DNA of 51,765 nt from Serinicoccus chungangensis (GTDB lineage: Bacteria; Actinomycetota; Actinomycetes; Actinomycetales; Dermatophilaceae). Shown here one piece after another: positions 572-13,529 of the stretch (positions are counted from its first letter, which is position 1; every line of letters starts with the position of its first letter). The stretch lies in assembly GCF_001483745.1 (NCBI RefSeq), contig NZ_LQBL01000007.1:1-51765 (forward strand), written 5' to 3'. Below the pieces are notes generated by a model, which was not told where the DNA came from, made no database searches, and saw only the letters and a list, made by a program, of their open reading frames with translations. The translations under genes and the position numbers were made by a program.

Positions 572-619
572 CATGAGACATCTGGAAATGCCGCAAGGGA
601 CTGCTGCACGGGTAGGTGA

Positions 620-1218
620 CCGGCTGGGTCAGGCCGCCTGAGGGGCGACTGCGGCCACGGTCGGCCTCGTACTCGATGAGCGTCAACGGACCGGCGTTGT
701 CCTGGGCCTGCATCCCCAGGCGAGACCTCATCCGGGCCTCGATGGAGTACCCGACGATGCGGCCGGACCAGACGTCCTTGACGGCGCACAGGTAGAGCTT
801 GTCCTCCCCGGTGGGGCGCTCGGTGATGTCAGTCAGCCACAGCTGGTTCGGACCGTCAGCGGTGAAGTCTCGCTCGACGAGTTCCTCGTGAGGGCGGTCC
901 TGGTTTGCCGTTCTTCCCACGCTTCTTCCCGAACGCGCTCACCAACCGGTGTGCGAGCAGGCCCGCCAAGCAGTCCGCGTCGCCATCAGCTGGCCCGACT
1001 CAGCAGCCTCGTCCATGAGGAACCGGTACCCGAACTCCGGGTCATCCAGGTGCGCGTCGAACAGGGGCGTTCGCGGATAGGCCTGCCCGCGCTCGGTGTC
1101 GGTGACCGGGCTCGCCAGCCACCGGTAGTACGGCTTGTGACCGATCTTTAGCATTCGGAACGTCACCGTGACGGGCATCCCAGACGCCGGCCAGGTCGCG
1201 AACGAGCGGGTACATCAT
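620..1218 (-). pseudogene. IS3 orfB transposase remnant (copy A)
   Basis: The remnant begins MMYPLVRDLAG at 1218, shifts frame near 1178 into MPVTVTFRMLKIGHKPYYRWLA, shifts again near 930, and continues as LWLTDITERPTGEDKLYLCA with the first catalytic Asp region (TDIT) and VKDVWSGRIVGYSIE. After SRLGMQAQDNAG the sequence jumps to the extreme C-terminal motif TLIEYEAD, so roughly a hundred residues of the integrase core are gone. Comparison with copy B makes the frame changes and the deletion clear. No function remains. Confidence 0.7.
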
Positions 1219-1516
1219 TTTCCCGGCAAGTTGGCTTGGGACAGCTAGGCCGCAGCCCGGCGCAGGACCTCGTTCTCCTGCTCCAGCGGTCGCACTCTCC
1301 TCTACAGCTCCCGGTTCTCGGCGTTCTCGGCGGCGCTGGGGCCCGGCTTCACACCGTCCTCGACGTCCGCGGTCTTCATCCAGTTCGCCAGGCACGACTC
1401 GCTGATACCGAACTTGGCAGCGATCTGCTTCGGATGACTCCCGCCTCAAGGTTCCTTGCGACACGCACGACGACATCGCGGGACTCTCGGGGAAAGGGCT
1501 TAAGTACAGTGCACAT
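1215..1516 (-). pseudogene. IS3 orfA remnant (copy A)
   Basis: Reading leftward from ATG at 1516 gives MCTVLKPFPRESRDVVVRVA, then a helix-turn-helix-like region (KFGISESCLANWMK) and the leucine-zipper-type segment RPLEQENEVLRRAAA, ending LSQANLPGK. This is collinear with the intact orfA of copy B at 6368-6670. Two in-frame TAG codons interrupt it, one before the RRVRPLEQ segment and one just before LSQANLPGK, so no full-length protein is possible. The final TGA overlaps the ATG of the orfB remnant exactly as in copy B. Confidence 0.7.
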
Positions 1517-1557
1517 CCTTCCAGCAGCACCTCTCGGCACCCCAGATCAGATGTCAC

Positions 1558-2856
1558 CTATCCGTGCAGCAGCCCCTTCCGCCGCTCTGAGCGAAGCACG
1601 AAGAGCGTTGGCACGACGGCGCAAATGACGAAACAGCCGCCAACCACCAGTCCAGTTGACGGACCATACGCCGAAGCGACACCACCGAGCCCGACAGAAC
1701 CTAGCCCTACAGCAACATTGGCGAAGGTCGATTCAACACTGAGAAGCGTTGCTCTCTGGTCATCTTCTACTTGGCTGTGCAGCAGAGGCCCCAGGAGTGC
1801 GCCAGATGGTCCCCCCACCAGGAACGCCATCCCGAAGAACAGGGCCAATATCCACAGATGGCCGGCCAGCCCACCAGCTACGAGCAGTACGCCCGAAAGG
1901 AGTGTCAGGGAGACTACCGCCCGGCCCCAGTGACCCCACCTACGGATAGCCCCCGCGCAAGCCGCACCTACCGCCGCGCACCCCTGCGTGCCCACAAACA
2001 GAACGGCAAAGAATGCTGCGGCGCTACTGGGCGACGCCACCAGATCCGCCAACTTGAGGGGGGTGAGCAACTCGAAAGCTTGGAATCCCGCCGCCATGAA
2101 CAGCCATCGAGCGGAGAAAAGCCAGATTGTCTTGTTTTTTCCCAAATTAATGAAGGCCCGCAACGCGCCTCCTTGTTTACCCGCGACAGGACCATGCTGC
2201 CGCGCGTCTTTTCGTGGTACGTGCTTCTCAAGTCGCATACCAATGACCATCATGATGAACACCACTTCCACCGCGCATCCGAGCCAAACTGGCACGGTAA
2301 GAAGCTGTAGACTCTCGGCTGACGACAGGAAAGGTCCGGACCCGAAATGCAAGACAGTAGCGGCCACGGCCGCTCCCACAGCCCCCCCAACTGCCGCGCC
2401 CGCGAACCCACTACCCAGACCTTCAGAAAGCTGCTGATCCACGTCGCCTGGAACAGCGTCCCCCACCCTGTGATGCGCTCGGTTCGCTGAAACAAACCAC
2501 GCCTGCAACGGTCCTGACTCAACCGCGCGACCTAAACCAAAAATTACTGAGGCGATACCAAACCAGAATGGTTCCGAAAAAGTGGCAAACACAGCGAACG
2601 CACACAACCGTAGAACACTTGCCGCAATAATTGAAACCGATCGAGGGAGGCGATCTGAGCCCATCCCCAGCGGAATTTCGGCACAAGCGATTGTGAAGGC
2701 ACCTAGGGCCAGGACAATACCGATAGCAGACGTAGACAGTCCGCGATCCGCCATGAGGATAACTAAGACAGGGAACGTTGCCGCAGTACCCATGATCTGC
2801 ATCGCACTCAAAACAAAATAGGTGACCCGGAGATTCCCACGCCGTCGCACTGTCAT
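1558..2856 (-). CDS. MFS transporter, probable exporter of the peptide product
   Basis: The protein has 432 residues and about 12 hydrophobic segments, starting with RVTYFVLSAMQIMGTAATFPVLVILM. The MFS-type loop after the second segment (EIPLGMGSDRLPRSVS) and the central hydrophilic loop (around MRLEKHVPRKDARQHGP) fit the major facilitator superfamily. The ATG overlaps the TGA of the upstream acetyltransferase-like gene by 4 nt (ATGA), which indicates translational coupling. As last gene of the precursor/radical SAM/methyltransferase operon it probably exports the mature product or gives self-protection; that role is inferred from position. The last residues GLLHG and the stop codon are encoded by the terminal inverted repeat of IS3 copy A, so the natural C-terminus has been replaced, probably without loss of a membrane helix. 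Third-position base use is visibly more AT-rich than in the flanking chromosome. Confidence 0.85.
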   Translation of the reverse strand: MTVRRRGNLRVTYFVLSAMQIMGTAATFPVLVILMADRGLSTSAIGIVLALGAFTIACAEIPLGMGSDRLPRSVSIIAASVLRLCAFAVFATFSEPFWFGIASVIFGLGRAVESGPLQAWFVSANRAHHRVGDAVPGDVDQQLSEGLGSGFAGAAVGGAVGAAVAATVLHFGSGPFLSSAESLQLLTVPVWLGCAVEVVFIMMVIGMRLEKHVPRKDARQHGPVAGKQGGALRAFINLGKNKTIWLFSARWLFMAAGFQAFELLTPLKLADLVASPSSAAAFFAVLFVGTQGCAAVGAACAGAIRRWGHWGRAVVSLTLLSGVLLVAGGLAGHLWILALFFGMAFLVGGPSGALLGPLLHSQVEDDQRATLLSVESTFANVAVGLGSVGLGGVASAYGPSTGLVVGGCFVICAVVPTLFVLRSERRKGLLHG

Positions 2857-4097
2857 ATGTTCATACCCTGATGGGGTTGGTGTGGTACAGCGAAGAATCT
2901 GTCCAGCCTCTCACATGCCCCAACCACATTCTCATAGATTGCACCAGCATTTCGCGCTTGCACCCACGTGGCGTCACACAAAAACAGCTGCGTCAGCCAG
3001 TCGATTCCTAAACAAACGTCTGGCTCGGCCTTTGTCTCAGTGACGCTTGCCTCGAATTCACGCACCTCAATGGCGTAGCGCCCTGAATTCTCAGGAAACA
3101 AGTCGTCAATCAGTTCCAACACGAACTGGCCTTCGACAGCGTAGGACCTGGCCAACAAACACGGCACTGGATCAAAGATTCTTGCATATATACCATCAAG
3201 AACTTGTACAGGCCTAAGTCGAGCCTCAAACTGTGGACCAGCTGCAAAACTGTCCAGGGCTTGCGGCCCCGACTTCAGACTGGCCGCGCCGAATGCCTCA
3301 AAGATTTTGCGAACCAAGAAGAACTCGTGTTGTGGACTACAATGCATGTCTAGAAGACTCCATCTTTTCGCCTCTCGGACGAACGGAGCCACAACCGCAT
3401 AGCCCGCCATACGACCACTACCGTCTACCAACTTCAGCATTCGAACTTCACCCAAGGTTGAACTCTGAGGGTCCGTCCAGAACGCCAAGAGGTCAAGAGC
3501 CGAGTTTCCTACGGCCCCAAGACGCCCCCATTGCGCCGAATCGCGATGTCCAACCAGATTCGCGGCCAGTATAGCCGCTTCGGAGTCAACAGCGGAGGCT
3601 TCGACCTCCATTTCTGAGTATAGCGAATAGTCGAAGGGACCCTTGCCCGTTCGAACATCGCTGTAAGCTATATCGGCAACCACAGACCGCGTTAGTCTGC
3701 GGCACCCGAGGTACTTGGCATGTCTTGGTTGCGCCAACATAGTCAAGCCCATCGGCAAGCCCATCTCGTTCTTGACATGGGAAATGGCGCGAGTAGGTAG
3801 GAGTAATCCGAGCCGAGGGTCAGTTGTCTCTGGGTGGGTGGCCCACCAACCCATCACGGCGACAGGCAGAGGCGCTCCCGAGTGGGAGACACGGACTGAA
3901 CGACGTAAAGTAAGAATCGCTCCTTCTAGGGACCCGTCCCGAACCGCGCAGAGGCCCTCTTCCGATGCAAGCGAATCAAACCACTCAGCTCGCGCCCGCG
4001 GAAGTGGTGTGCTGAGGCCTTTGGCCTGCCACAGCTGCGCGATCTTTGGAACCGAGCCGGCGTCCAGGGCCTGCAGTTGGTTGGTCACACGGTCCAC
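2853..4097 (-). CDS. Eis-like GNAT acetyltransferase with C-terminal SCP2-type domain
   Basis: The 414-residue protein resembles the Eis family: two GNAT folds followed by a sterol-carrier-protein-2-like domain. The N-terminal half has the GNAT-like progression LCAVRDGSLEGAILTLRRS, then APLPVAVMGWWATHPE, then HVKNEMGLPMGLTMLAQPRHAKYLGCRRL. The C-terminal half (about 300-410) has RSYAVEGQFVLELIDDLFPE, GRYAIEVREFEASVT, LGIDWLTQLFL and a final LDRFFAVPHQPH, matching the Eis C-terminal layout. The usual acetyl-CoA pyrophosphate loop (RxxGxG/A) is weak, so catalysis is not certain. Its start overlaps the methyltransferase stop by 13 nt and its stop overlaps the MFS start. It could acetylate the peptide, for instance its N-terminus, or act in resistance. 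The family call rests on pattern memory only. Confidence 0.6.
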   Translation of the reverse strand: MDRVTNQLQALDAGSVPKIAQLWQAKGLSTPLPRARAEWFDSLASEEGLCAVRDGSLEGAILTLRRSVRVSHSGAPLPVAVMGWWATHPETTDPRLGLLLPTRAISHVKNEMGLPMGLTMLAQPRHAKYLGCRRLTRSVVADIAYSDVRTGKGPFDYSLYSEMEVEASAVDSEAAILAANLVGHRDSAQWGRLGAVGNSALDLLAFWTDPQSSTLGEVRMLKLVDGSGRMAGYAVVAPFVREAKRWSLLDMHCSPQHEFFLVRKIFEAFGAASLKSGPQALDSFAAGPQFEARLRPVQVLDGIYARIFDPVPCLLARSYAVEGQFVLELIDDLFPENSGRYAIEVREFEASVTETKAEPDVCLGIDWLTQLFLCDATWVQARNAGAIYENVVGACERLDRFFAVPHQPHQGMNI

Positions 4098-4834
4098 CCT
4101 TTACGTACTATCAGTCGAAGACGACCAGCGTTGTACCTGGTCGCCGCTCGCGGCCGGAGGGCGAGTCTCTGCGCGGCATCTACTGAAGCAAACACGCGCC
4201 ACAGGCTGCTTGGTGTAAAGACGTAGGACTCTACCTCAAAGGCGCCATGCGTAGTTTGACCCGCAGGTTCGGACATGCATACCGCGTGTCGCGTAACCAT
4301 CGAATTCTTGCCTGGGCGATAATTGCTGGTCGTCTTGACCGTCCACTCGCGCGTTCGAGTTCTAAGCGTTTTAGTGTAGCTCACAGAACGGTGCCCAACC
4401 TTGGTGTAGGGCCGTAGGTCCGGAACATCGACGGCCACAGTCCCCCCTTGGCGGCAAACGCGAAGAAGCTCATTGGCAACGAGTCCCTGCCGGCGAGTAC
4501 TGATCATATGAGAGAGGAGACCACGCGGTGCAATAACGGTGTCGAAGGACTCGTCAGCAAGAGGCAGTTGAGCGGCATCCCCAGCAACGAGTGGGATGTC
4601 CTGATGCTTAAGAGTGTTTTGCCTGCCCCAGGAAAGCATAGTTGAGTCTATATCCAGACCCATGATTTTGCGCGTTGAAAACTGTCTAAGCACGCGCCCG
4701 GTTCCACAGCCCACTTCAAGTATTTCTGCGGCGTCGCTCGCGACACTCTCCCAAAAAGTGGTATCGTCCGGCGCGTCAGCATAGACCAGATCGTAGAGAA
4801 AGCCTGCACCGTCATACTGTCGTGAACTTTGCAT
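4085..4834 (-). CDS. Class I SAM-dependent methyltransferase
   Basis: This 249-residue protein has a Rossmann-type methyltransferase core: motif I AEILEVGCGTGRVL (about 36-49), an acidic residue after strand 2 (IMGLDID), the AGDAAQLPLADESFD stretch typical of motif II, and VCRQGGTVAVDVPDL after it. It belongs to the broad Methyltransf_11/25 group. It starts 14 nt after the radical SAM stop and overlaps the next gene, so it is part of one transcript with the peptide precursor. A tailoring role is likely, such as O-, N- or C-terminal methylation of the modified peptide, but the substrate cannot be read from sequence. Confidence 0.85.
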   Translation of the reverse strand: MQSSRQYDGAGFLYDLVYADAPDDTTFWESVASDAAEILEVGCGTGRVLRQFSTRKIMGLDIDSTMLSWGRQNTLKHQDIPLVAGDAAQLPLADESFDTVIAPRGLLSHMISTRRQGLVANELLRVCRQGGTVAVDVPDLRPYTKVGHRSVSYTKTLRTRTREWTVKTTSNYRPGKNSMVTRHAVCMSEPAGQTTHGAFEVESYVFTPSSLWRVFASVDAAQRLALRPRAATRYNAGRLRLIVRKGWTV

Positions 4835-4848
4835 AGCGTGGCGCGAAT

Positions 4849-6036
4849 CTACGGGCTATAGAGATAATCGAGGAGGCGGCCCTCATATGCACTACGTATC
4901 TTTTGCGAGACTGTCGCAGCTTGTTGATTGTCTTCATAGAAATCATGGCACGACAACCATTTGCTCTCAAGATCAACTTGATACCCAGCATAGATATCAC
5001 CGACTTTGTAGTCGGCGCGGCCTGCCGTCTCCCAGGAACTATATAGCCCCCCATCAGGTGTCACCACCGCCCCGGTGTGACCGGGTGTGCCCGCGCAAAA
5101 GGCGCAGTCGTTGCTTGCGGGCTTGCCAAGCAACATGCCCGCCTTGTGAGCCGTTTGCGCGGCATCAAGTAGGCTACACGCCATGCTGTCAACAGTGTCT
5201 TTTGCTTGTTGCGTCTCGAGGTCTCGGTTCCACGAGTAGTCGCGGACGATGGCGAACGAAAGAGTCAGACGCGAGAGGTCTTGAACGTTGTCTACGAGGT
5301 CGCTGATTATTCCCGGCACGCCGTCAATATTGGAACGAGTGACGTTAATTCTTACGCCAATCCTAAGGGGCGTATCGTCCACGGCTGTGGCTAGATTTCG
5401 TATGATTCGACGATACGAGGGTTGTCCCCCAGTCGTACTCCGGACGGCGTCATGGTCACGGTTATTGCCGTCAAAAGTCAATTGAATGGACTCGAGGCCT
5501 GCATCAGCTAACGCGGTTGCTGTCTCCATTGTGAGCATGTAGCCGTTTGATATCATGTGAGCGTGCTCGAGTTTGTCCTGCATGCCATTTAGGAGGGCAA
5601 GGCAAGCATGCGGGCTGAGCAGAGGCTCTCCCCCGAAGAGTAAGAGAGAGATGCGATCGCACCCGGCTTTTTCCATTCGGTTTTTGACCCAAAGAGAAAT
5701 TCGGCTCGCTTGGGGCACTGTCAGACGCATTTTGGGAATGCGCCGCACAACATCCTCTTCAGTCTTCTCGTTCTGAAAGCAATAGAAGCAGCGAAAGTTG
5801 CAGTCAGTGGAAGTGAGGACGGTAGCGGAGAAGAGTTTGGTGTCTGGCGGGCTTTGGTACCCCAGGGCTCGCATCTTCTCAAGGGCACGTTCAAGGCTAG
5901 GACTGTTGTCGTTCCCGCTATGCGCGCTTTGAGGCTGGCGCCGGACCTTTATCGTGGCGCGGGGGCTGAGGATCCAATCGTTCTCTGGGCTAGAGACGAT
6001 GCGGAATGACTGTGGGGGGCTAGTTGCTGCGCTCAC
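4849..6036 (-). CDS. Radical SAM peptide-modifying enzyme (SPASM/twitch-like)
   Basis: The enzyme has 395 residues from the GTG at 6036. That start is chosen because AGGAGG sits 5 nt upstream; an in-frame ATG at 6075 lacks such a site. The radical SAM cluster motif is C79-NFR-C83-FY-C86, followed by the SAM-binding GGEP at 135-138. A C-terminal region with C311, C314 and C363 and the segment VVTPDGGLYSSWETAG resembles a SPASM or twitch domain for auxiliary Fe-S binding. However, Ser replaces the Cys usually found after the G-x-x-Y turn, and the total of three Cys is low. Such enzymes install thioether or C-C crosslinks in RiPP precursors. The gene lies 86 nt downstream of a 34-residue Cys-containing precursor and heads methyltransferase, acetyltransferase-like and exporter genes. 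No RRE domain is evident. Confidence 0.85.
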   Translation of the reverse strand: MSAATSPPQSFRIVSSPENDWILSPRATIKVRRQPQSAHSGNDNSPSLERALEKMRALGYQSPPDTKLFSATVLTSTDCNFRCFYCFQNEKTEEDVVRRIPKMRLTVPQASRISLWVKNRMEKAGCDRISLLLFGGEPLLSPHACLALLNGMQDKLEHAHMISNGYMLTMETATALADAGLESIQLTFDGNNRDHDAVRSTTGGQPSYRRIIRNLATAVDDTPLRIGVRINVTRSNIDGVPGIISDLVDNVQDLSRLTLSFAIVRDYSWNRDLETQQAKDTVDSMACSLLDAAQTAHKAGMLLGKPASNDCAFCAGTPGHTGAVVTPDGGLYSSWETAGRADYKVGDIYAGYQVDLESKWLSCHDFYEDNQQAATVSQKIRSAYEGRLLDYLYSP

Positions 6037-6119
6037 CGGGACCTCCTTATTTGTTCCTTCTCTGGCGTGTTGCAACTCGCGTGTCGGAAGGCCAAATCCA
6101 ACAGCGGAGGTCCCGGTGA
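6033..6119 (-). promoter_or_regulatory. 14-bp inverted repeat enclosing the radical SAM ribosome-binding site
   Basis: TCACCGGGACCTCC at 6033-6046 and its exact complement GGAGGTCCCGGTGA at 6106-6119 form a perfect 14-bp stem with a 59-nt loop. In the transcript the 5' arm begins 3 nt after the precursor stop codon. The 3' arm contains the AGGAGG core's GGAGG and the GTG start of the radical SAM gene. Folding would hide the ribosome-binding site, giving much precursor and little enzyme, or it could act as a regulated switch or transcript stabiliser. Confidence 0.6.
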
Positions 6120-6122
6120 CGT

Positions 6123-6227
6123 TCAGCAGCCGATGTTGTTGGCGCCGCAGTCGGTCCGGTCGTAGATGACCTCAACTACCTCGAAGTCACTCTCGGCGGG
6201 AACGATGTCCGTGGTTGCGTGCTGCAT
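6123..6227 (-). CDS. Candidate RiPP precursor peptide, 34 residues
   Basis: This short gene reads leftward from ATG at 6227 to TGA at 6123. The first residues are MQHATTDIVPAES, then DFEVVEVIYDRT, then DCGANNIGC at the C-terminus. A strong ribosome-binding site (GAGGGAGGGGGTGA) lies about 7 nt upstream. The leader is acidic and has an alternating hydrophobic stretch (FEVVEVIY) of the kind that pairs with maturation enzymes. The core carries two Cys separated by seven positions, two Asn and two Gly, and contains N-I-G-C, an NxxC motif. It lies immediately before a radical SAM gene in the same direction. No family assignment is possible by eye. It has no signal peptide, as expected for a leader-dependent RiPP. 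The gene is far below usual annotation length cut-offs. Confidence 0.75.
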   Translation of the reverse strand: MQHATTDIVPAESDFEVVEVIYDRTDCGANNIGC

Positions 6228-6233
6228 CTTGCT

Positions 6234-6258
6234 TCACCCCCTCCCTCGATCGATCGAG
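6234..6258 (-). promoter_or_regulatory. Precursor ribosome-binding site with adjoining 14-bp palindrome
   Basis: On the minus strand a purine-rich GAGGGAGGGGGTGA lies just before the precursor ATG. Directly upstream, overlapping by 3 nt, is the perfect palindrome CTCGATCGATCGAG (6245-6258). The palindrome could be a repressor operator or an mRNA hairpin in the 5' leader. No regulator gene is present in the operon, so any binding protein would be encoded elsewhere. Confidence 0.45.
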
Positions 6259-6270
6259 TTCGACTCCTTG

Positions 6271-6299
6271 AGTGAATCCCCTTCACCACCGAAAGTCAA
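6271..6299 (-). promoter_or_regulatory. Possible promoter of the peptide operon
   Basis: Reading leftward, TTGACT (6299-6294) is followed after 17 nt by TTCACT (6276-6271). The -35 hexamer matches the vegetative consensus well and the -10 hexamer poorly (3 of 6). The -35 box lies 8 bp from the terminal repeat of IS3 copy B, so the insertion stops just short of the promoter. Confidence 0.35.
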
Positions 6300-6367
6300 C
6301 CCCCCATGGGACTGCTGCACGGATAGGTGACACCTGAGCTGCCTAGTCTTCGGGCTGGGCTGGAAGG

Positions 6368-6670
6368 ATGTTCACCGTGACCAAGCCCTACCCCCAGGAG
6401 TTCCGCGATGATGTCCTGCGGGTCGCTCGGAACCGTGAGCCCGGTGTCGGGCTTGACCAGATCGCGAAGGACTTCGGGATCCACTTCACGACCCTGTACT
6501 CGTGGATGAAGAGGGCCGACGAGGATGACGAGGGTGGCCGGCCTGGTGCTGCGGTCGCCTCTGCTGAGCTGCGCGAGGCCAGGAAGCGGATCCGCCTTCT
6601 CGAGCAGGAGAACGAGGTCCTGCGCCGTGCTGCGACCTATCTATCTCAGGCGAACCTGCCGGGGAAATGA
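6368..6670 (+). CDS. IS3-family orfA (helix-turn-helix transposase subunit)
   Basis: An intact 100-residue orfA protein. An N-terminal helix-turn-helix of the transposase_8 type (FRDDVLRVARNREPG...LDQIAKDFGIHFTTLYSWMK) is followed by a leucine-zipper-like coiled coil (ELREARKRIRLLEQENEVLRRAA) used for dimerisation. It ends LSQANLPGK, and its TGA overlaps the ATG of orfB (ATGA at 6667-6670). In IS3 elements OrfA binds the terminal repeats and is also fused to OrfB by frameshifting. With orfB broken here, OrfA could only act as a repressor. Confidence 0.88.
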   Translation: MFTVTKPYPQEFRDDVLRVARNREPGVGLDQIAKDFGIHFTTLYSWMKRADEDDEGGRPGAAVASAELREARKRIRLLEQENEVLRRAATYLSQANLPGK

Positions 6671-7235
6671 TGTACCCGCTCGTCCGCGAGCTGGCCGTTG
6701 ACGGGATCCCCGTCACGGTGACGTGCCGGGTGCTGAAGATCGCTCGACAGCCGTACTACCGGTGGCTGGCCAACCCGGTCACCGACGCCGACCTCGCCGC
6801 GGCCCACCGCGCGAACGCCCTGTTCGATGCCCACCGCGACGACCCCGAGTTCGGCTACCGGTACCTGGTCGACGAAGCCCGCGAGGCCGGCCAGGTGATG
6901 AGCGAGCGGACGGCGGGGCGTTGTGCTCGGACAACGGCTGGTGGTCAGCGTTCGGCAAGAAGCGCGGCAAGAATGGCAAGGAGCCCGGCCCGCCGGTCCA
7001 CGAGGACCGGTGCGCCATCACCGACAAGCACGGCCGGACCCGGCACGCGTTCACCGCCACGGCACCGAACGAGCTGTGGGTCGGTGACATCACCGAACAC
7101 TGGACCGGTGAGGGCAAGCTCTACCTCTGCGCGTTCAAGGACGTGTACTCCAACCGGATCGTGGGCTACTCCATCGACTCTCGCATGAAGTCCCGGATCG
7201 CCGTCACCGCACTCAACAACGCCGTCGCCCGCCGC

Positions 7236-7267
7236 GGAAACGTGGCTCTTCGACTTTGAGCGTGGTG
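7236..7267. repeat. ISL3 left target duplication and inverted repeat
   Basis: GGAAACGT at 7236-7243 is the left 8-bp target-site duplication. The 24-bp left inverted repeat (7244-7267) begins GGCTCTTCGACTTTGAGC and matches the right end at 23 of 24 positions. Confidence 0.9.
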
Positions 7268-8660
7268 GGGCCCTGAAGTAGGGCTCGCGGCCCTGCCCCA
7301 ACATGGGTGTTGTCGAAGCATCCAAGAGCGAGGACCGCGAGCGTGCACCAGCCTACGTTCGACGTCGATGCGGCGTCGATCCTGTTCAACCTGCCCGGCT
7401 ACCGAGTCGTCTCGGCCAGCCCTGCCGTCGGCGACCAGCCGCGGCAGGTGCTCATCGAGACAGTCGCGACGGAGGGCGCCTGCCCGTCCTGCGGCGTGCT
7501 GTCCTCGCGGGTCCAGGCCCGACCGACCCAGCACGTCAAGGATGTCGCCTGCGGCGGCGGGCGCCTCGACGTCGTCGTGCGCAAGCGCCGCTACGCCTGC
7601 CGTGAGTCGCTGTGCCTTTCGGCGCTCGTTCACCGAGGAGACCGAGCAGCTGCCGGCCCGGGCCAGGGTCACGACCCGGCTCGCGGAGCAGGTGATTAGC
7701 GCCTGCCGGGCCGAGCCGCGCGCGGTCTCCCGCGTCGCGCACGAGGCGCACCTGGCCTGGCCCACGGTGATGCGGATGCTCACGACCACCCTGGGTCTGG
7801 ACACCGGCGTGGACCGCCGGCACGTGCGCCACCTGGGGATCGACGAGCACCGGTTCCGCACGGTGCGGTACCTGCGCGACCCCGACACCCACGCGGTGAC
7901 GCGGGTCGAGCCGTGGTCGATCGTGTTCACCGACCTGGACGACGGCGCCATCCTCGACGTCGTCGACGGTCGGCGCGGCGCGACCGTGAAGAAGTGGCTC
8001 GCGGCGCGGCCACGGTGGTGGCGCAAGCGGGTGCGCCTGGTCGCGCTCGACATGTCCAGTGAGTTCCGCTCCGCCGTCCGAAAGGCGCTGCCCAGGGCAC
8101 GGGTCAGCGTCGACCACTGGCACGTGGTGCGCTTGGCCAACGAGATGGTCACCAAGGTCCGCCGGCGCCGGGTGTGGGAGCTGCACGAGCGCCGCGGCCG
8201 GGCCACCGATACCCCGTGGAAGTACCGCAAGCTGCTCACCTGCGCCGGCGACAAGCTCTCCGTACGGCAACGCGACAAGCTGCAGCAGATCCTGGCAGAG
8301 GACGTCGAGCTGGCCGTGGCGTGGGGCATCAAGGAACACGTCCGCCAGCTCCCCGTCGCCCGGGACAACGCCACGTTCCAGCGCGCCTGGGCCCGGCTCG
8401 AGAGCGCCGTGCGCGCCACCCGCCTGGCGAACCGGTCGCGCTGTTCCGGACGCTGCGCGCGTGGCGACGTGAGCTCCTCACGTTCTGCCGCACGAGGCTC
8501 ACGAACGCAAAGACCGAGGCCGCGAACCTGACCGCCAAAACGATCAAGAGGGTCGGTCGGGGGTACCGCAATCACGACAACTACCGGTGCCGCATCATTG
8601 GCTATGCGCCCCGACAGATCGCGGCGTGAACACCTGCACCACGCTCAAAGTTGAAGAGCC
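7244..8660 (+). mobile_element. ISL3-family insertion sequence nested in IS3 copy B
   Basis: The element is 1417 bp with 24-bp terminal inverted repeats (7244-7267 and 8637-8660, one mismatch) and an 8-bp target duplication GGAAACGT on each side. Both the repeat length and the 8-bp duplication are characteristic of ISL3. It carries a single transposase frame that is itself broken twice. The preserved target duplication shows it inserted into IS3 copy B and has not rearranged since. Its transposase differs from the remnant at 83-571. Confidence 0.92.
7343..8629 (+). pseudogene. ISL3-family transposase with two frameshifts
   Basis: The N-terminus from GTG 7343 (or ATG 7307) contains the ISL3 zinc-finger region (GACPSCGVLSSRVQ...RKRRYACRESLC). 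A frameshift near 7612 leads to FRRSFTEETEQLPARARVTT and then the DDE domain: LGIDEHRF with the first Asp, LVALDMSSEFRSAVRKAL with the second, and SVDHWHVVRLANEMV. A second frameshift near 8430 leads to LRAWRRELLTF and NAKTEAANLTAKTIKR, which carries the catalytic Glu, ending GYAPRQIAA. The catalytic residues are conserved and only the frame is damaged, so inactivation looks recent or reflects small sequence errors. Confidence 0.85.
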
Positions 8661-8668
8661 GGAAACGT
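8637..8668. repeat. ISL3 right inverted repeat and target duplication
   Basis: The 24-bp right inverted repeat occupies 8637-8660 and is followed by the second copy of the 8-bp duplication GGAAACGT at 8661-8668, identical to 7236-7243. Confidence 0.9.
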
Positions 8669-9025
8669 CACCGGGTGCGTGGTCCACACGGATCGCGATT
8701 CTCAATTTCGTAGCAGGAAGGTCGTCCACGCTCTCAACCGCCACGACATGGTCGGGTCAATGGGGCGAGTCGGTGTCGCGGGCGACAACGCTGCCATGGA
8801 GTCCTTCTTCGCGCTGCTTCAGAAGAACGTCCTGGATCGCCACGCCTGGGCCACCCGCCACGACCTACGCATCGCCATCGCCACCTGGATCGAACGGCCT
8901 ACCACCGCCGCCGACGACAAGCCGCTCTCGGCCGGTTGACCCCCATCGAGTACGAGATGATCATGACCGCACCAGCCGATCAGGCTACGTGACTAACCAC
9001 TGTCACCCATCCGTGCAGCAGTCCC

Positions 9026-9290
9026 CGGGCATCCGTTGAACCACCACGAGAGTCGTCCCTTGTAGCCCAAGGAGGCCTGCACTTAGACCCCGGTGAGGCG
9101 CACCGCCGCACGCGCGCATCTACCGCATGTTGGAGTCTGCTGTGGAAGCACCTACTCACACCTGTCTCTGCCGCAGTCCCACTCAAGATGCACGCAAGAT
9201 GCACGTTAGGCAATCTCGCATGTGGTGGAAGCGACCGCTGGACCGCGTTTGCCCAAGTCATCAGACTTCCGACCCCTGGAATAGCAGGGT
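9026..9290. other. Gene-free stretch between IS3 copy B and tRNA-Val
   Basis: About 265 bp without a credible gene. It contains a perfect tandem duplication of an 11-mer (9184-9205) and abuts the 3' end of the tRNA-Val gene. The layout suits the attachment-site arm of an element integrated at the tRNA, but no integrase is present in this part of the window. Confidence 0.4.
9184..9205. repeat. Perfect 11-bp tandem repeat near the tRNA 3' end
   Basis: CAAGATGCACG occurs twice back to back (9184-9194 and 9195-9205), about 85 bp from the tRNA-Val 3' end. Integrase arm-type sites often occur as such short direct repeats. A comparable tandem pair lies beside the integrase at 50011-50031, though with a different sequence. 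Confidence 0.6.
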
Positions 9291-9363
9291 GGACGTGAAG
9301 GGACTCGAACCCCTGACCTCTCGCGTGTGAAGCGAACGCTCTAACCAACTGAGCTACACGTCC
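9291..9363 (-). tRNA. tRNA-Val (anticodon CAC)
   Basis: The 73-nt gene folds as a complete cloverleaf on the minus strand. The acceptor stem GGACGTG pairs perfectly with CACGTCC. The D-arm has GCTC/GAGC. The anticodon stem TTCGC/GCGAG encloses loop TTCACAC with anticodon CAC, which reads GTG valine codons. The T-arm AGGGG/CCCCT encloses TTCGAGT. CCA is not encoded; the next bases are ACCC. Its 3' end points at the IS-rich island (1-9290), a common arrangement for integrated elements. Confidence 0.95.
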
Positions 9364-9375
9364 GGACGTGCCCGC

Positions 9376-9409
9376 GGGCACGAGGAGGCAGTCTAGCCTC
9401 CCCGTGCCC
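9376..9409 (-). terminator. Hairpin between the protease gene and tRNA-Val
   Basis: GGGCACGAGGAGGC (9376-9389) pairs with GCCTCCCCGTGCCC (9396-9409): 14 bp with one mismatch and a 6-nt loop. It lies downstream of the protease stop codon at 9438 and probably ends that transcript. There is no long T-tract. The loop holds TAGACT on the minus strand, which could alternatively be part of the tRNA promoter. Confidence 0.55.
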
Positions 9410-9437
9410 GAGCGACGAAATCGCCTCGGCTGGTGCC

Positions 9438-10352
9438 TCAGCTGGTGCTGGCGGCGGTGTAGACCTGCTGCTCGACGTTCCCGAAGTAGGGGCCGTACAT
9501 GACGTCCCGCTCCCCCTGGTAGCCGAAGGAGTTCACCGAGTTGAGGACGCCGCCGGTGATCCAGCCACCCCCGCTGGAGCCGCCGGTCATCGAGCACGGC
9601 AGACGGTGGTCGGTGGTGCCGCGCGTGTCCTGTCCGGCGACCCCGGAGCAGCGCCACAGCTCCTCCCCGTCGTAGGGGCTGGCCGCCGGGTAGCCGAAGG
9701 CGTCGAAGGTCAGGCCGTAGCCCTGGTTGAAGGCGATCGGGTAGTCGCCGGTCACGTCGGTGAGGCTCTGGCCTCCCTGCTCGGCCATGACGGCGAAGCC
9801 GACGTCGTGGTTGAAGTCGCCGCTGTTCACCCAGGCCTGGGGGGCGACGAGCGACTCGGCGACCCAGGTGCCGTAGGGCCGGGCACCGTTGTCGTAGGCG
9901 GGGACGAAGGCGAAGTTCGTGGCGTAGGCGCCCGGACCCTCGTTGAGGCAGTGGCCAGCCGTGGTCACCACGTCGCCGTTGGCGCTGTCGGTCGCGGTGC
10001 CCGAGCACACGTAGTTGGCGCCGCCGAGGGTGAAGAAGACCTTGCCGAGCTCGGCCTGGGCGGGCGCCTGCACGGCCTGGGCCGAGCTCGTCGTCCCGCC
10101 GGGCTTGCCCTTGCCGTCGGGCCTGGCCATCTCGCGGGGGGTGGCGTTCTTCATCCGCTCGGGGGTCCAGTAGGCCCGGACCTCGGCCTGCGCCGACCGC
10201 GTGGAGGCGGCGGCGTGCTTGGCGACCGCCTCATCCTGACCGTTCCCCGCACCGTTGCCGGGTGCGGCTCCCGCACCGGTGGCTCCGACCAGGGACAGGG
10301 CCACGGCACCGGTGCTGATGAGGGCCAGGGTGCGCTTTCCAGCAGGACGCAT
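9438..10352 (-). CDS. Secreted trypsin/V8-like serine protease
   Basis: A 304-residue protein with an N-terminal signal peptide (MRPAGKRTLALISTGAVALS, probable cleavage after GAGAA near residue 30), a pro-region of about 70 residues, and a chymotrypsin-fold peptidase domain from about residue 100. The triad is visible as TAGHC (H134), NHDVGF (D183) and TGGSSGGGW (S260). Cys pairs at C116/C135 and C235/C253 could form disulphides. It resembles secreted actinobacterial peptidases of the glutamyl-endopeptidase group. The gene is monocistronic, with a hairpin downstream and a TGTAA-N4-TTACA palindrome upstream. Confidence 0.85.
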   Translation of the reverse strand: MRPAGKRTLALISTGAVALSLVGATGAGAAPGNGAGNGQDEAVAKHAAASTRSAQAEVRAYWTPERMKNATPREMARPDGKGKPGGTTSSAQAVQAPAQAELGKVFFTLGGANYVCSGTATDSANGDVVTTAGHCLNEGPGAYATNFAFVPAYDNGARPYGTWVAESLVAPQAWVNSGDFNHDVGFAVMAEQGGQSLTDVTGDYPIAFNQGYGLTFDAFGYPAASPYDGEELWRCSGVAGQDTRGTTDHRLPCSMTGGSSGGGWITGGVLNSVNSFGYQGERDVMYGPYFGNVEQQVYTAASTS

Positions 10353-10427
10353 ACGTCTCCTCCTTGTGAGAGGGACGGACGCCGTCGCTGGCGTCCTCTC
10401 TCGAACGTAGCCACGCTCCCGCGCGGT

Positions 10428-10441
10428 TGTAACCGCTTACA
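10428..10441. promoter_or_regulatory. Palindrome upstream of the protease gene, possible operator
   Basis: TGTAACCGCTTACA has 5-bp inverted arms TGTAA/TTACA around a 4-nt centre, about 75 bp upstream of the protease start. On the minus strand TTGACG and TTGACC (about 10449-10460 and 10441-10446) are nearby -35-like hexamers, so a bound protein could block transcription. No regulator is assigned. Confidence 0.35.
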
Positions 10442-10465
10442 GGTCAATTCTCCGTCAAGGTTGGG

Positions 10466-11401
10466 TCAAGGATCCAGGGTCCGCGCGGCCCGCTCGGCGA
10501 AGACCCGCAGGGCCCGCTGCGCCATCGGGCCGGGCTGTTCCCCCAGGTCACGGGGGGTGAGCCCGGGCACGGCCAGCTCCTGACCGCTCGCCAGCAGCAC
10601 CGGGTCGTGGACGTCCAGCCGGTGCAGGGCGGTGATGTCGCGGATGCTGCTCGAGAGCCAGATCTCGTCGGCCTCGGCCAGCACCGACAGCGGCAGCGCC
10701 TCCTCGACCACGTCGACGCCGTCCTCGCGCAGCCACTCGACGACCAGCCCGCGGGTGACCCCGGCCAGCGGCCCCGAGCCGAGGTCCGGGGTGCGCACGG
10801 TGTCGCCGGTCACGACGAAGACGTTGGTGCCGGTCCCCTCGCACAACATCCCCGCGGTGTTGGCGAGGATCGCCTCGGAGTGCCCGCGCGCCTTCGCCGC
10901 CGCGAGCGCGACGACGTTCTCCGCGTAGGACGTCGACTTCACCCCGGTGAGCGCCCCCCGCTCGTTGCGGACCCAGGGCACCACGAGCGCGGAGGTCGTC
11001 GCCGGGATGGGGTCCTGCTCGACCGCGGTGACGACATACGTCGCCGCTCCCGGGACCCGGTCGCTGCCGAGCGGCCCGAGCCCGGCGGTGACGGTGTAGC
11101 GCAGCCGGCCGAACGGCATACCTCCCTCTGCGAGGACCGCGGCGATGCCCTCCCCGACCCGGTCCCGGTCCAGCGGCTCCAGGCCGAGCGCCGCGAGCGA
11201 CCGGTCCATCCGGTCGTGGTGCCGCGTGAGCGCGAAGACCTCCCCGTCGACCACCTTGCAGGTCTCGAACACCCCGTCGCCGACGGTGATCCCGTGGTCC
11301 AGCGCCGGCACCGAGCCCTCCGGCCCGACGAGGGCGCCGTCGACCCACACCCGCACCGCGGAGAGTCCACCGGCAGCGGTCAGCGAGCTCGACGTGTCCA
11401 T
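10466..11401 (-). CDS. pabC: Class IV PLP aminotransferase, probable aminodeoxychorismate lyase
   Basis: A 311-residue fold-type IV PLP enzyme. The N-terminal segment VRVWVDGALVGPEGSVPALDHGITVGDGVFETCKVVDGEVF and the PLP lysine region GALTGVKSTSYAENVVALA are typical, as is the later EGTGTNVFVVTGDTVRTPDLGSGPLAGVTRG phosphate-binding region. Among the class (4-amino-4-deoxychorismate lyase, branched-chain and D-amino-acid aminotransferases), the short length and SYAENV after the lysine favour aminodeoxychorismate lyase in folate synthesis; the distinction is not certain. ATG 11401 was chosen because in-frame sequence further upstream overlaps pta. Only 34 bp separate it from the divergent pta start. 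Confidence 0.75.
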   Translation of the reverse strand: MDTSSSLTAAGGLSAVRVWVDGALVGPEGSVPALDHGITVGDGVFETCKVVDGEVFALTRHHDRMDRSLAALGLEPLDRDRVGEGIAAVLAEGGMPFGRLRYTVTAGLGPLGSDRVPGAATYVVTAVEQDPIPATTSALVVPWVRNERGALTGVKSTSYAENVVALAAAKARGHSEAILANTAGMLCEGTGTNVFVVTGDTVRTPDLGSGPLAGVTRGLVVEWLREDGVDVVEEALPLSVLAEADEIWLSSSIRDITALHRLDVHDPVLLASGQELAVPGLTPRDLGEQPGPMAQRALRVFAERAARTLDP

Positions 11402-11435
11402 GGACGCAGCGTAAAGCGTGGCTATCGTGGGACCC

Positions 11436-13529
11436 GTGAGCACCTCCCTGTATGTCGCGTCCGCCGAGCCCCGGTCCGGCAAGTCGGCGGTGGCGGTCGG
11501 GCTGCTCGCCCAGCTGTGCGCCCTCGGCGGCCGGGTCGGCGTCTTCCGCCCCGTCGTGCAGGACCGGGAGCACGACCCGCTCCTGCACCTGCTGCACCCG
11601 CTCTCGACGTCGGCGTCGGCCATCGAGGACGCCGTCGGGGTGACCTACGACGACATGCACCACCAGCACGATGCGGCCATCGGCGACATCGTCGACCGGT
11701 TCCACCGGTATGCCGCCGAGCACGAGCGGGTGCTCGTCGTCGGCTCGGACTACACCGGGGTCACCGCCCCCACCGAGTTCTCCACCAACGCCGGCATCGC
11801 CGCCCACCTCGGCGCGCCCATGCTGCTCATCATCCCGGCCGCCGGCCGCAGCGTGGAGGACACCGCCACGGCCGCGGCCGTCACCGTGCAGGAGGCGCTG
11901 AGCCGGCACGCGGCGGTCGCGGGCGTGCTCGCCAACCGCGTCGACGACGACCTGGACGAGGTGTCCGCGGCGGTCCGCGACGCGGTCACCGAGCAGGTGG
12001 CCGGCGGTGGCAGCGACCCGGTCGTCCTCGCGATGCCCGCCGACCCGCTGCTCGCCGCCCCGACGGTGGGCGACCTCATGGCGGCGACCGACGGCATACT
12101 CCGGGCGGGTGACGAGACCCTGCTCGAGCGGGAGGCGACCGGGCTCATCATCGCCGGGATGACCATGCCCAACGTCCTGGACCGGCTGCGCGAGGGCAAC
12201 GTGCTCATCTGCCCCGGCGACCGCGAGGACGTGCTGCTGGGCGCCATCCTCGCCCACCGGTCCTCGACCTTCCCCTCGCTCGGGGCCATCGTCCTCAACG
12301 GTGGGCTGCGCCCCAGCGAGCAGGTGTCTCGGCTCGTCGAGGGCCTCGCGGTGGAGCTGCCGATCATCGGCTGCGAGGGCGGGACCATGCGCACGGCGAT
12401 GACCATGCACGACGTCGTCGGCCGCATCACCCCCCGCTCGCAGCGCAAGATCGAGCACGCCCGGTCCCTGGCCCAGCAGCACGTCGACCTCACCCGGCTG
12501 CTCCCCGTCGACGACGACACCGGTCGCCGGTCCGGCGTGGTGACCCCCCTCATGTTCGAGCACGAGATCATGGCCCGGGCGCGGGAGACGGGCGCGCACG
12601 TGGTGCTGCCCGAGGGCGGGGAGGACCGGATCCTGCGCGCGGCCGACACCGTGCTCGCCCGCGGGGTCGCCCGTCTCACGCTGCTCGGTGACGAGGCGCA
12701 GGTGCGTGAGCGGGGGGCGGCACTGGGCCTGCGGCTCGACGCCGCCGAGGTCGTCGACCCGCTCACCAGCGACTGGCGCGAGGACTTCGCGCGGACGTAT
12801 GCCGAGCTGCGGGCGCACAAGGGCGTCACCCTGGAGCAGGCCCAGGACATCGTCACCGACCCGGCCTACTTCGGCACCCTCATGGTCAAGACCGGGCGGG
12901 CCGACGGCATGGTCTCCGGGTCGATCACCACGACCGCGCACACCATCCGGCCGGCGCTGGAGGTGATCCGCACCTCCCCCGGTGTCTCGGTCGTCAGCTC
13001 GGTGTTCTTCATGTGCCTGGCCGACAAGGTCCTCGTCTACGGCGACTGCGCCATCAACCCCGACCCGGACGCCGAGCAGCTCGCCGACATCGCGATCTCC
13101 TCGGCCGCGACGGCCGCCCGGTTCGGTGTCGAGCCGCGGGTGGCGATGCTGTCCTACAGCACCGGCGGCTCGGGCAGCGGGGCCGACGTCGACAAGGTGC
13201 GCACGGCGACCGACCTCGTGCGTGAGCGGGAGCCCTCGCTCCTCGTCGAGGGGCCGATCCAGTACGACGCCGCCGTCGACCCTTCCGTCGCGGCCACCAA
13301 GCTCAAGGACTCCCCCGTCGCCGGCCAGGCCACCGTGCTCGTCTTCCCCGACCTCAACACCGGCAACAACACCTACAAGGCGGTGCAGCGCAGCGCCTCC
13401 GCGGTGGCGGTCGGTCCGGTGCTGCAGGGGCTGAACGCCCCGGTCAACGACCTGTCCCGAGGCGCGACGGTCCGCGACATCATCAACACCGTCGCCATCA
13501 CGGGGATCCAGGCGGGGGCGGGCCGATGA
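11436..13529 (+). CDS. pta: Phosphate acetyltransferase
   Basis: A 697-residue long-form Pta. The N-terminal part has a P-loop-like start (VASAEPRSGKSAVAVGLLAQ), followed by the DRTGG-type middle region and the C-terminal catalytic PTA_PTB domain from about residue 380 (GAHVVLPEGGEDRILRAAD, KTGRADGMVSGSITTTAHTI, SVVSSVFFMCLADKV, LSYSTGGSGSGADVDKV, DLNTGNNTYKAVQRSA). It converts acetyl-CoA plus phosphate to acetyl phosphate and, with acetate kinase, forms the acetate overflow or assimilation pathway. GTG 11436 begins VSTSLYVASAEPRSGKS, the usual family start. The stop overlaps the ackA start (ATGA), so the two are translationally coupled. Confidence 0.95.
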   Translation: MSTSLYVASAEPRSGKSAVAVGLLAQLCALGGRVGVFRPVVQDREHDPLLHLLHPLSTSASAIEDAVGVTYDDMHHQHDAAIGDIVDRFHRYAAEHERVLVVGSDYTGVTAPTEFSTNAGIAAHLGAPMLLIIPAAGRSVEDTATAAAVTVQEALSRHAAVAGVLANRVDDDLDEVSAAVRDAVTEQVAGGGSDPVVLAMPADPLLAAPTVGDLMAATDGILRAGDETLLEREATGLIIAGMTMPNVLDRLREGNVLICPGDREDVLLGAILAHRSSTFPSLGAIVLNGGLRPSEQVSRLVEGLAVELPIIGCEGGTMRTAMTMHDVVGRITPRSQRKIEHARSLAQQHVDLTRLLPVDDDTGRRSGVVTPLMFEHEIMARARETGAHVVLPEGGEDRILRAADTVLARGVARLTLLGDEAQVRERGAALGLRLDAAEVVDPLTSDWREDFARTYAELRAHKGVTLEQAQDIVTDPAYFGTLMVKTGRADGMVSGSITTTAHTIRPALEVIRTSPGVSVVSSVFFMCLADKVLVYGDCAINPDPDAEQLADIAISSAATAARFGVEPRVAMLSYSTGGSGSGADVDKVRTATDLVREREPSLLVEGPIQYDAAVDPSVAATKLKDSPVAGQATVLVFPDLNTGNNTYKAVQRSASAVAVGPVLQGLNAPVNDLSRGATVRDIINTVAITGIQAGAGR

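Follow-up and report, generated by a model that had tools for sequence, protein, structure and literature searches.

A small cysteine-containing peptide and a radical SAM enzyme head a probable RiPP operon between two insertion sequences in Serinicoccus chungangensis

We examined a stretch of 51,765 nucleotides of Serinicoccus chungangensis (contig NZ_LQBL01000007.1, positions 1 to 51,765; hereafter the window), near whose beginning five genes follow one another on the minus strand in the order small peptide, radical S-adenosylmethionine (SAM) enzyme, methyltransferase, Eis/SCP2-like protein, and major facilitator superfamily (MFS) transporter, which set an earlier note, made from the sequence alone, had taken for an undescribed operon of a ribosomally synthesized and post-translationally modified peptide (RiPP). 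The peptide gene (6227-6123) starts with ATG and encodes 34 residues, MQHATTDIVPAESDFEVVEVIYDRTDCGANNIGC, with an FEVVEV stretch in the leader and DCGANNIGC at the C-terminus; a purine-rich, Shine-Dalgarno (SD)-like stretch, GGGAGGGGGTG, was read directly at 6245-6235, so that the short gene with a putative ribosome-binding site, an acidic leader, and this core was found as the note had described it. The gene of the radical SAM maturase (6036-4849; GTG start, 395 residues; Pfam Radical_SAM) likewise showed, on the same strand, the CxxxCxxC motif (as CNFRCFYC), the GGEP motif, and the three C-terminal Cys (C311, C314, and C363) that had been pointed out. Then come the SAM-dependent methyltransferase (4834-4085; 249 residues, with the motif EVGCGTG and a Pfam Methyltransf_25 match of 62.5 bits), the Eis/SCP2-like protein (4097-2853; 414 residues, with SCP2_2 in the C-terminal half and a diverged GNAT half), and the MFS transporter (2856-1558; 432 residues, Pfam MFS_1 at 47 bits). 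The gap between the peptide and enzyme genes is of 86 nt; the three genes downstream are indeed tightly coupled, with 14 nt between enzyme and methyltransferase followed by overlaps of 13 nt (methyltransferase and Eis-like) and 4 nt (Eis-like and MFS). The Pfam cut-offs for Radical_SAM, methyltransferase, SCP2_2, and MFS_1 were reached by the proteins of the operon; none of those four proteins reached an NCBIfam cut-off among the matches listed.

The best relative of the enzyme (E 1.1e-86) lies in the same order and a different family, at a locus that we label L015, where all five genes recur in the same order as in the window, with identities of 38% for the enzyme, 37% for the methyltransferase, 26% for the Eis-like protein, and 41% for the MFS protein. 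At the matching position before the L015 enzyme stands a homologous open reading frame (ORF) of 31 residues, MESIPVKTVDELEVVEITYELQDCGVNHVIC (9054-8959), which was the top match to the window peptide among 1,532 small ORFs from 13 loci, with a score of 65 as against 34 for the runner-up; none of 20,000 shuffles attained that score, their maximum being 49. A RiPP locus is recognized by the linkage of a precursor gene to a modifying enzyme, and in both the window and L015 the peptide gene was found directly before that of the enzyme. In a third locus, L031, from the family of L015, MDTIEIIAVDDQTAPCGTNLIIV precedes the enzyme and a different MFS gene comes after, and neither the methyltransferase nor the Eis-like protein had a tblastn match on the L031 contig of 11.7 kb. 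The L031 ORF scored only 30 in the ranking against the window peptide, and its kinship therefore rests on position, leader, and the CGxN motif, which it keeps without the final Cys. The second core Cys, present in L015, is thus missing in L031, and the conservation of both core Cys, which the earlier note had proposed as a check, did not hold; the first Cys alone is general.

Between the peptide and enzyme genes the minus-strand RNA is predicted by folding to form a hairpin (6033..6119) with perfect 14-nt arms at 6106-6119 and 6033-6046, whose 3' arm covers the SD and the GTG start of the enzyme gene; the fold had a z of -5.02, and 0 of 200 shuffles were equally stable. A stable hairpin was obtained in six of the eight intergenic stretches folded (window, L015, L031, L030, L017, and L020), with z from -4.2 to -5.6 and at most one of 200 shuffles as stable, and a significant one was absent from L022 (z -1.5) and L018 (z +1.4). 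Such an arrangement fits the maintenance of the peptide in excess over the enzyme, or translational coupling. If, alternatively, the small ORF were a regulatory leader peptide, its translation would open the hairpin hiding the enzyme start (translational attenuation) and the peptide would have no part in any product, with which scheme the spacing of only 3 nt from the peptide stop to the upstream arm and the masking of the start by the downstream arm would agree; yet residues have been kept despite codon differences (4 of the 11 identical residues, window versus L015), and the leader stretch recurs both without a significant hairpin (L018, L022) and with a divergent peptide gene (L016), for which reasons we regard a purely regulatory role as highly improbable.

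The further evidence for a precursor comes from the wider family, for which a scan for small ORFs covered 14 enzyme loci, that of the window among them; L023 and L024, truncated by contig ends, were excluded from the peptide counts. The scan demanded an SD-like match together with a Cys, and in many loci other Cys ORFs were set aside by eye; for 10 loci a simple script supplied gene calls, and at six the genes were read. The outcome that the earlier note had named against its own proposal, related enzymes consistently without a small Cys gene, did not occur: a Cys-peptide candidate, chosen by eye, was found at 12 of the 14 loci (window, L015-L020, L022, L025, L026, L030, and L031), and of the remaining two, L021 has listed Cys ORFs that look spurious and L027 is unjudged. 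The peptide of L016, missed by that scan, was recovered later with the leader motif itself. As for the leader stretch, whose conservation had also been proposed as a check, an acidic leader with an EVVE-, EVVA-, EIIA-, or DVVA-like stretch starting 10-15 residues before a Cys near the C-terminus was seen by eye at 10 of the 14 loci, the peptides of L025 and L026 belonging to the 12 and lacking the stretch; nine of the ten leader-bearing peptides were aligned, that of L019 being omitted as a near copy of that of L018. In L025 and L026, which come from the window's own family, the related enzymes stand after peptides that start with MDPAL and end in a single-Cys stretch, which constitute a different peptide type.

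The precursor of L020 (8941-8666, minus strand) has 91 residues with three tandem leader-core units (EVVAH ... WCGVHQE), as in a multi-core RiPP precursor. Those repeats, which fit a peptide product, bear on the idea that the peptide is a carrier, from which modified C-terminal residues would be excised as a small molecule in the style of pyrroloquinoline quinone (PQQ) or of the 3-thia-amino acids, with the methyltransferase and the SCP2 protein acting on that small product. The very short peptides (20-34 residues) of several loci and their variable tails would suit a carrier; a variable tail would nevertheless be odd for a fixed cofactor, and we judge the carrier improbable.

The partner genes, as recognized by Pfam, vary among these loci: a prolyl oligopeptidase in L016, L018, L020, and L022; an MFS protein in L016, L018, and L031; a JmjC_2 protein in L016 (5873-6790, minus) and L030 (8056-9174, plus); and a methyltransferase in L021, with a methyltransferase-like match on the opposite strand in L017. 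The complete five-gene set was found by tblastn in only the window and L015. The peptide gene of L016 is divergent and adjoins the JmjC_2 gene, and the JmjC_2 proteins beside the L016 and L030 peptide genes make hydroxylation of the peptide possible. The leader motif also recurs, as PEVLAH or EPDVLAH, in two transporters: L016 has it in the linker of a fusion of MFS and prolyl oligopeptidase parts (8440-11859, plus), and L018 near the C-terminal end of an MFS protein (5597-6940, minus), so that the transporter there perhaps carries its own docking sequence. With regard to the spread of the family, a scan of genome contigs gave one relative, L030; a plasmid search with the enzyme gave 16 records, all below 60% identity, and one with the Eis-like protein no match; viral contigs gave no match in a first scan and three pieces of 26% in a second (L032-L034), which were not used; and no further enzyme locus appeared in the genus or order of L015 or in a phylum sample at E 1e-40 to 1e-45.

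The enzyme, for its part, was aligned with ten relatives (L025, L026, and L027 being left out), among which 11 sequences Cys 79, 83, 86, 311, 314, and 363 were invariant and C145 nearly so. In a tree of 13 enzymes, which included L025 and L026 and excluded L027 as distant, the window, L015, and L031 formed a clade with support of 100/99, the deeper forks being weak; an extra Cys position, occupied by Ser in the window (YSSW) and by Cys in seven of the 13, is mixed on that tree (three changes). Twitch domains are described as SPASM domains in a shortened form that have one auxiliary cluster (PMC9012708), and the pattern C311/C314/C363 suggests a twitch-like state with a single such cluster; a full SPASM domain would have two auxiliary clusters, and on sequence alone only those three C-terminal Cys were invariant in the 11 enzymes. 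An AlphaFold model of the enzyme (pLDDT 83.1, pTM 0.83) had CteB as its top match by Foldseek and by VIA-align, as had the profile search; by VIA-align ChlB was equal, so that the fold alone does not settle the reaction, and a family missing from these structure or profile matches is not thereby excluded. Three other memberships were rejected: anti-phage defence, where PADLOC viperin and methyltransferase overlaps gave at most 50.3 bits and the NCBIfam viperin model 47 bits for a cut-off of 180; PQQ, the PqqE model giving L015 37.6 of 381 bits; and mycofactocin, the maturase model giving L022 35 of 265 bits, the latter two values being among the matches listed.

In the pathway that we propose, the FEVVEV stretch of the leader would dock as a strand on the N-terminal three-stranded part of the enzyme, which, with its SAM cluster and an auxiliary one (held by C311, C314, and C363 and leaving a site open for the Cys of the substrate), would join Cys27 to a residue two or three positions further on, Asn30 being the candidate in the CGxN clade. 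Our best guess for the modification is a Cys thioether, with a beta-carbon bond as the first guess; the thioether or carbon crosslink of the earlier note is to be understood as a prediction, and the acceptor as putative. In CX3D, PapB is reported to link Cys with an Asp or Glu acceptor and to tolerate spacings of 0-6 (PMC9413430), and NxxcB to link Cys23 to the beta-carbon of Asn20 (PMC8326336); by analogy, the CGxN of the window, L015, and L031 would combine the donor-before-acceptor order of PapB with the Asn acceptor of NxxcB. A Cys-Asn thioether is a tentative assignment, with chances that we place below even, and the presence of Asn at the acceptor position in only three of the 10 motif-bearing peptides weighs against it. 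The first step might instead be an alpha-carbon thioether or some other change of the Cys, for example at the second residue after it, with the Asn uninvolved, which we consider possible and yet rather unlikely; at the three loci where RumMC, a sactipeptide model, was listed (L018, L020, and L031), the PapB model scored higher, and RumMC was not among the 25 NCBIfam matches listed for the window enzyme.

Returning to the thioether pathway, the leader would be cut off by a protease encoded elsewhere. The operon contains no protease gene; the host has two Peptidase_S9_N genes, of the prolyl oligopeptidase type, on other contigs, and clusters without a protease are reported to be common, accounting for about one third of the lanthipeptide clusters in one study (PMC10885120). 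The methyltransferase would probably then methylate the product, the Eis/SCP2 protein would bind or acylate it, and the MFS protein would presumably export it. In the Eis-like protein SCP2_2 (PF13530) scored 49.9 bits for a cut-off of 23.2 and was above the cut-off in the L015 homologue as well; the GNAT half (Acetyltransf_9, PF13527), at 14.5 bits, fell under its cut-off of 25, and no GNAT match was found in the L015 homologue at E up to 0.01. Of the Eis-like acetyltransferase with an SCP2 domain in the earlier note, the domain accordingly stood, whereas the acetyltransferase label is uncertain. The C-terminal half matches Eis2 (6rft) with an E of 2.1e-17. In a stretch of the alignment that is itself not significant, PRLGLL in the window and AQPVVRDLL, without Gly, in L015 stand opposite RRRGLL of Eis2; the window protein may therefore keep the coenzyme A loop, which the L015 protein seems not to. 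Both proteins terminate in G-[MI]-N-I, and AlphaFold gave no usable model for the window protein (pLDDT 41, two sequences). From its sequence, this protein may bind or acylate the peptide.

The cassette is enclosed by two insertion sequences (ISs) of the same kind, which we take to be IS3-like from the look of their ORFs by eye. The left copy (597..1576, minus) has both ends and a degenerate interior, with repeats and the end motif at 601-620 and 1553-1572; the right copy (6308..9025, plus), inverted with respect to the left, has repeats and the end motif at 6312-6331 and 9002-9021, and is split by a second element at about 7244-8660, presumably ISL3-like, likewise judged by eye. With up to two mismatches allowed, the genome contains five copies of the end motif, of which four lie here and the fifth on a different contig. 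Two related IS copies around a cargo, one mark of a composite element, are thus present in the form of those repeats and end motifs, and from the two inverted flanks with their end motif we conclude that the five-gene cassette was probably acquired; the GC content is 56.6% at 1577-6307 versus 72.8% at 9100-51765. The genome search gave one copy of the enzyme in the host, and in the host's family the enzyme had a match in four of 186 genomes at E 1e-20, the other three being of other genera; the five-gene cassette is rare. The MFS gene runs into the left IS, whose end (1553-1576) supplies its final codons (GLLHG-stop), the stop codon included. That borrowed end, the damage in both ISs, and the mere 80 bp from the right IS to the peptide start would be understandable if the cassette were a decayed, non-functional passenger of the ISs; all five frames are nevertheless open, with lengths near those of the L015 homologues, and decay appears to us quite improbable.

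The homology of the L015 peptide, the synteny, the similar peptides beside related enzymes, and the hairpins lead us, therefore, to a RiPP operon carried on an IS-flanked, probably acquired cassette, to which reading we assign a probability of about 0.72; the call of the earlier note is well supported by the first three of these. A more speculative extension, which we consider doubtful, would place the operon in a rare branch of an unnamed RiPP class that is mainly actinobacterial. Such a class would combine a short acidic leader with an E-V-V-A/E strand, one conserved Cys near the C-terminus, a maturase whose single auxiliary cluster is open to that Cys, and partners that can be exchanged (prolyl oligopeptidase, JmjC protein, methyltransferase, and Eis/SCP2 protein), and the branch would be distinguished by a small Cys-to-Asn ring in CGxN and by a diverged Eis/SCP2-type protein acting on the peptide. 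Should these proposals be true, the locus would supply a maturase of compact build, perhaps relying on one auxiliary cluster, and the near-minimal substrate CGxN, both useful for learning how a radical SAM enzyme chooses its acceptor carbon; it would also add a peptide family easily overlooked by gene callers, and a new and testable RiPP partner or role for an Eis/SCP2-type protein.

As to whether the operon is undescribed, the window and its relatives matched no Pfam model beyond generic domains and, among the matches listed, no NCBIfam model at cut-off, and among the open-access papers listed there was no description of the family and no name for it. The word can stand against those sources only: subscription journals lay mostly outside them, and the family may have been described elsewhere. 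This group may already be listed in the "Bioinformatic atlas" of radical SAM RiPPs by Clark and Seyedsayamdost, of 2022.

Among the known systems, the triceptide or cyclophane RiPPs have an aromatic residue in the core, and DCGANNIGC contains no Trp, Phe, Tyr, or His; Tyr22 lies five residues ahead of Cys27, the start of the core not being fixed. The biarylitides, exemplified by myxarylin, resemble the present system in their very short precursor and differ in that their crosslink is made by a P450 and not by a radical SAM enzyme; in one account the crosslink comes first, a prolyl oligopeptidase probably then removes the leader, and N-methylation is next (PMC12951456). Eis and Eis2 share with the window protein the SCP2-type C-terminal half and perhaps the loop that reads RRRGLL in Eis2 and PRLGLL here, and are unlike it in the GNAT half; opposite that loop, in a stretch not significantly aligned, the L015 protein lacks the Gly. 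TIGR04463 and CefB (NF038107) were the top two NCBIfam matches of the window enzyme and among the best three in six relatives; the scores, however, are far under the cut-offs (119 of 525 and 106 of 600 bits), and the names imply Cys-rich peptides as against one or two Cys per core here. The SCIFF maturase CteB offers both the best solved fold and the best profile match, but at 16-19% identity and with a six-Cys peptide that the window lacks; the named SCIFF and ranthipeptide models also miss their cut-offs for the window enzyme (SCIFF 47 of 425 bits; PapB 74 of 340). The ranthipeptide systems PapA/PapB and NxxcA/NxxcB are alike in having a short, leader-bearing Cys peptide beside a radical SAM enzyme with a PapB-type profile match, PapA with its CX3D further sharing a Cys donor ahead of the acceptor and NxxcA an Asn as the possible acceptor; the window differs from both in the CxxN spacing, the one or two Cys, the three invariant C-terminal Cys of the enzyme, and the presence in the cassette of a methyltransferase and an SCP2 partner.

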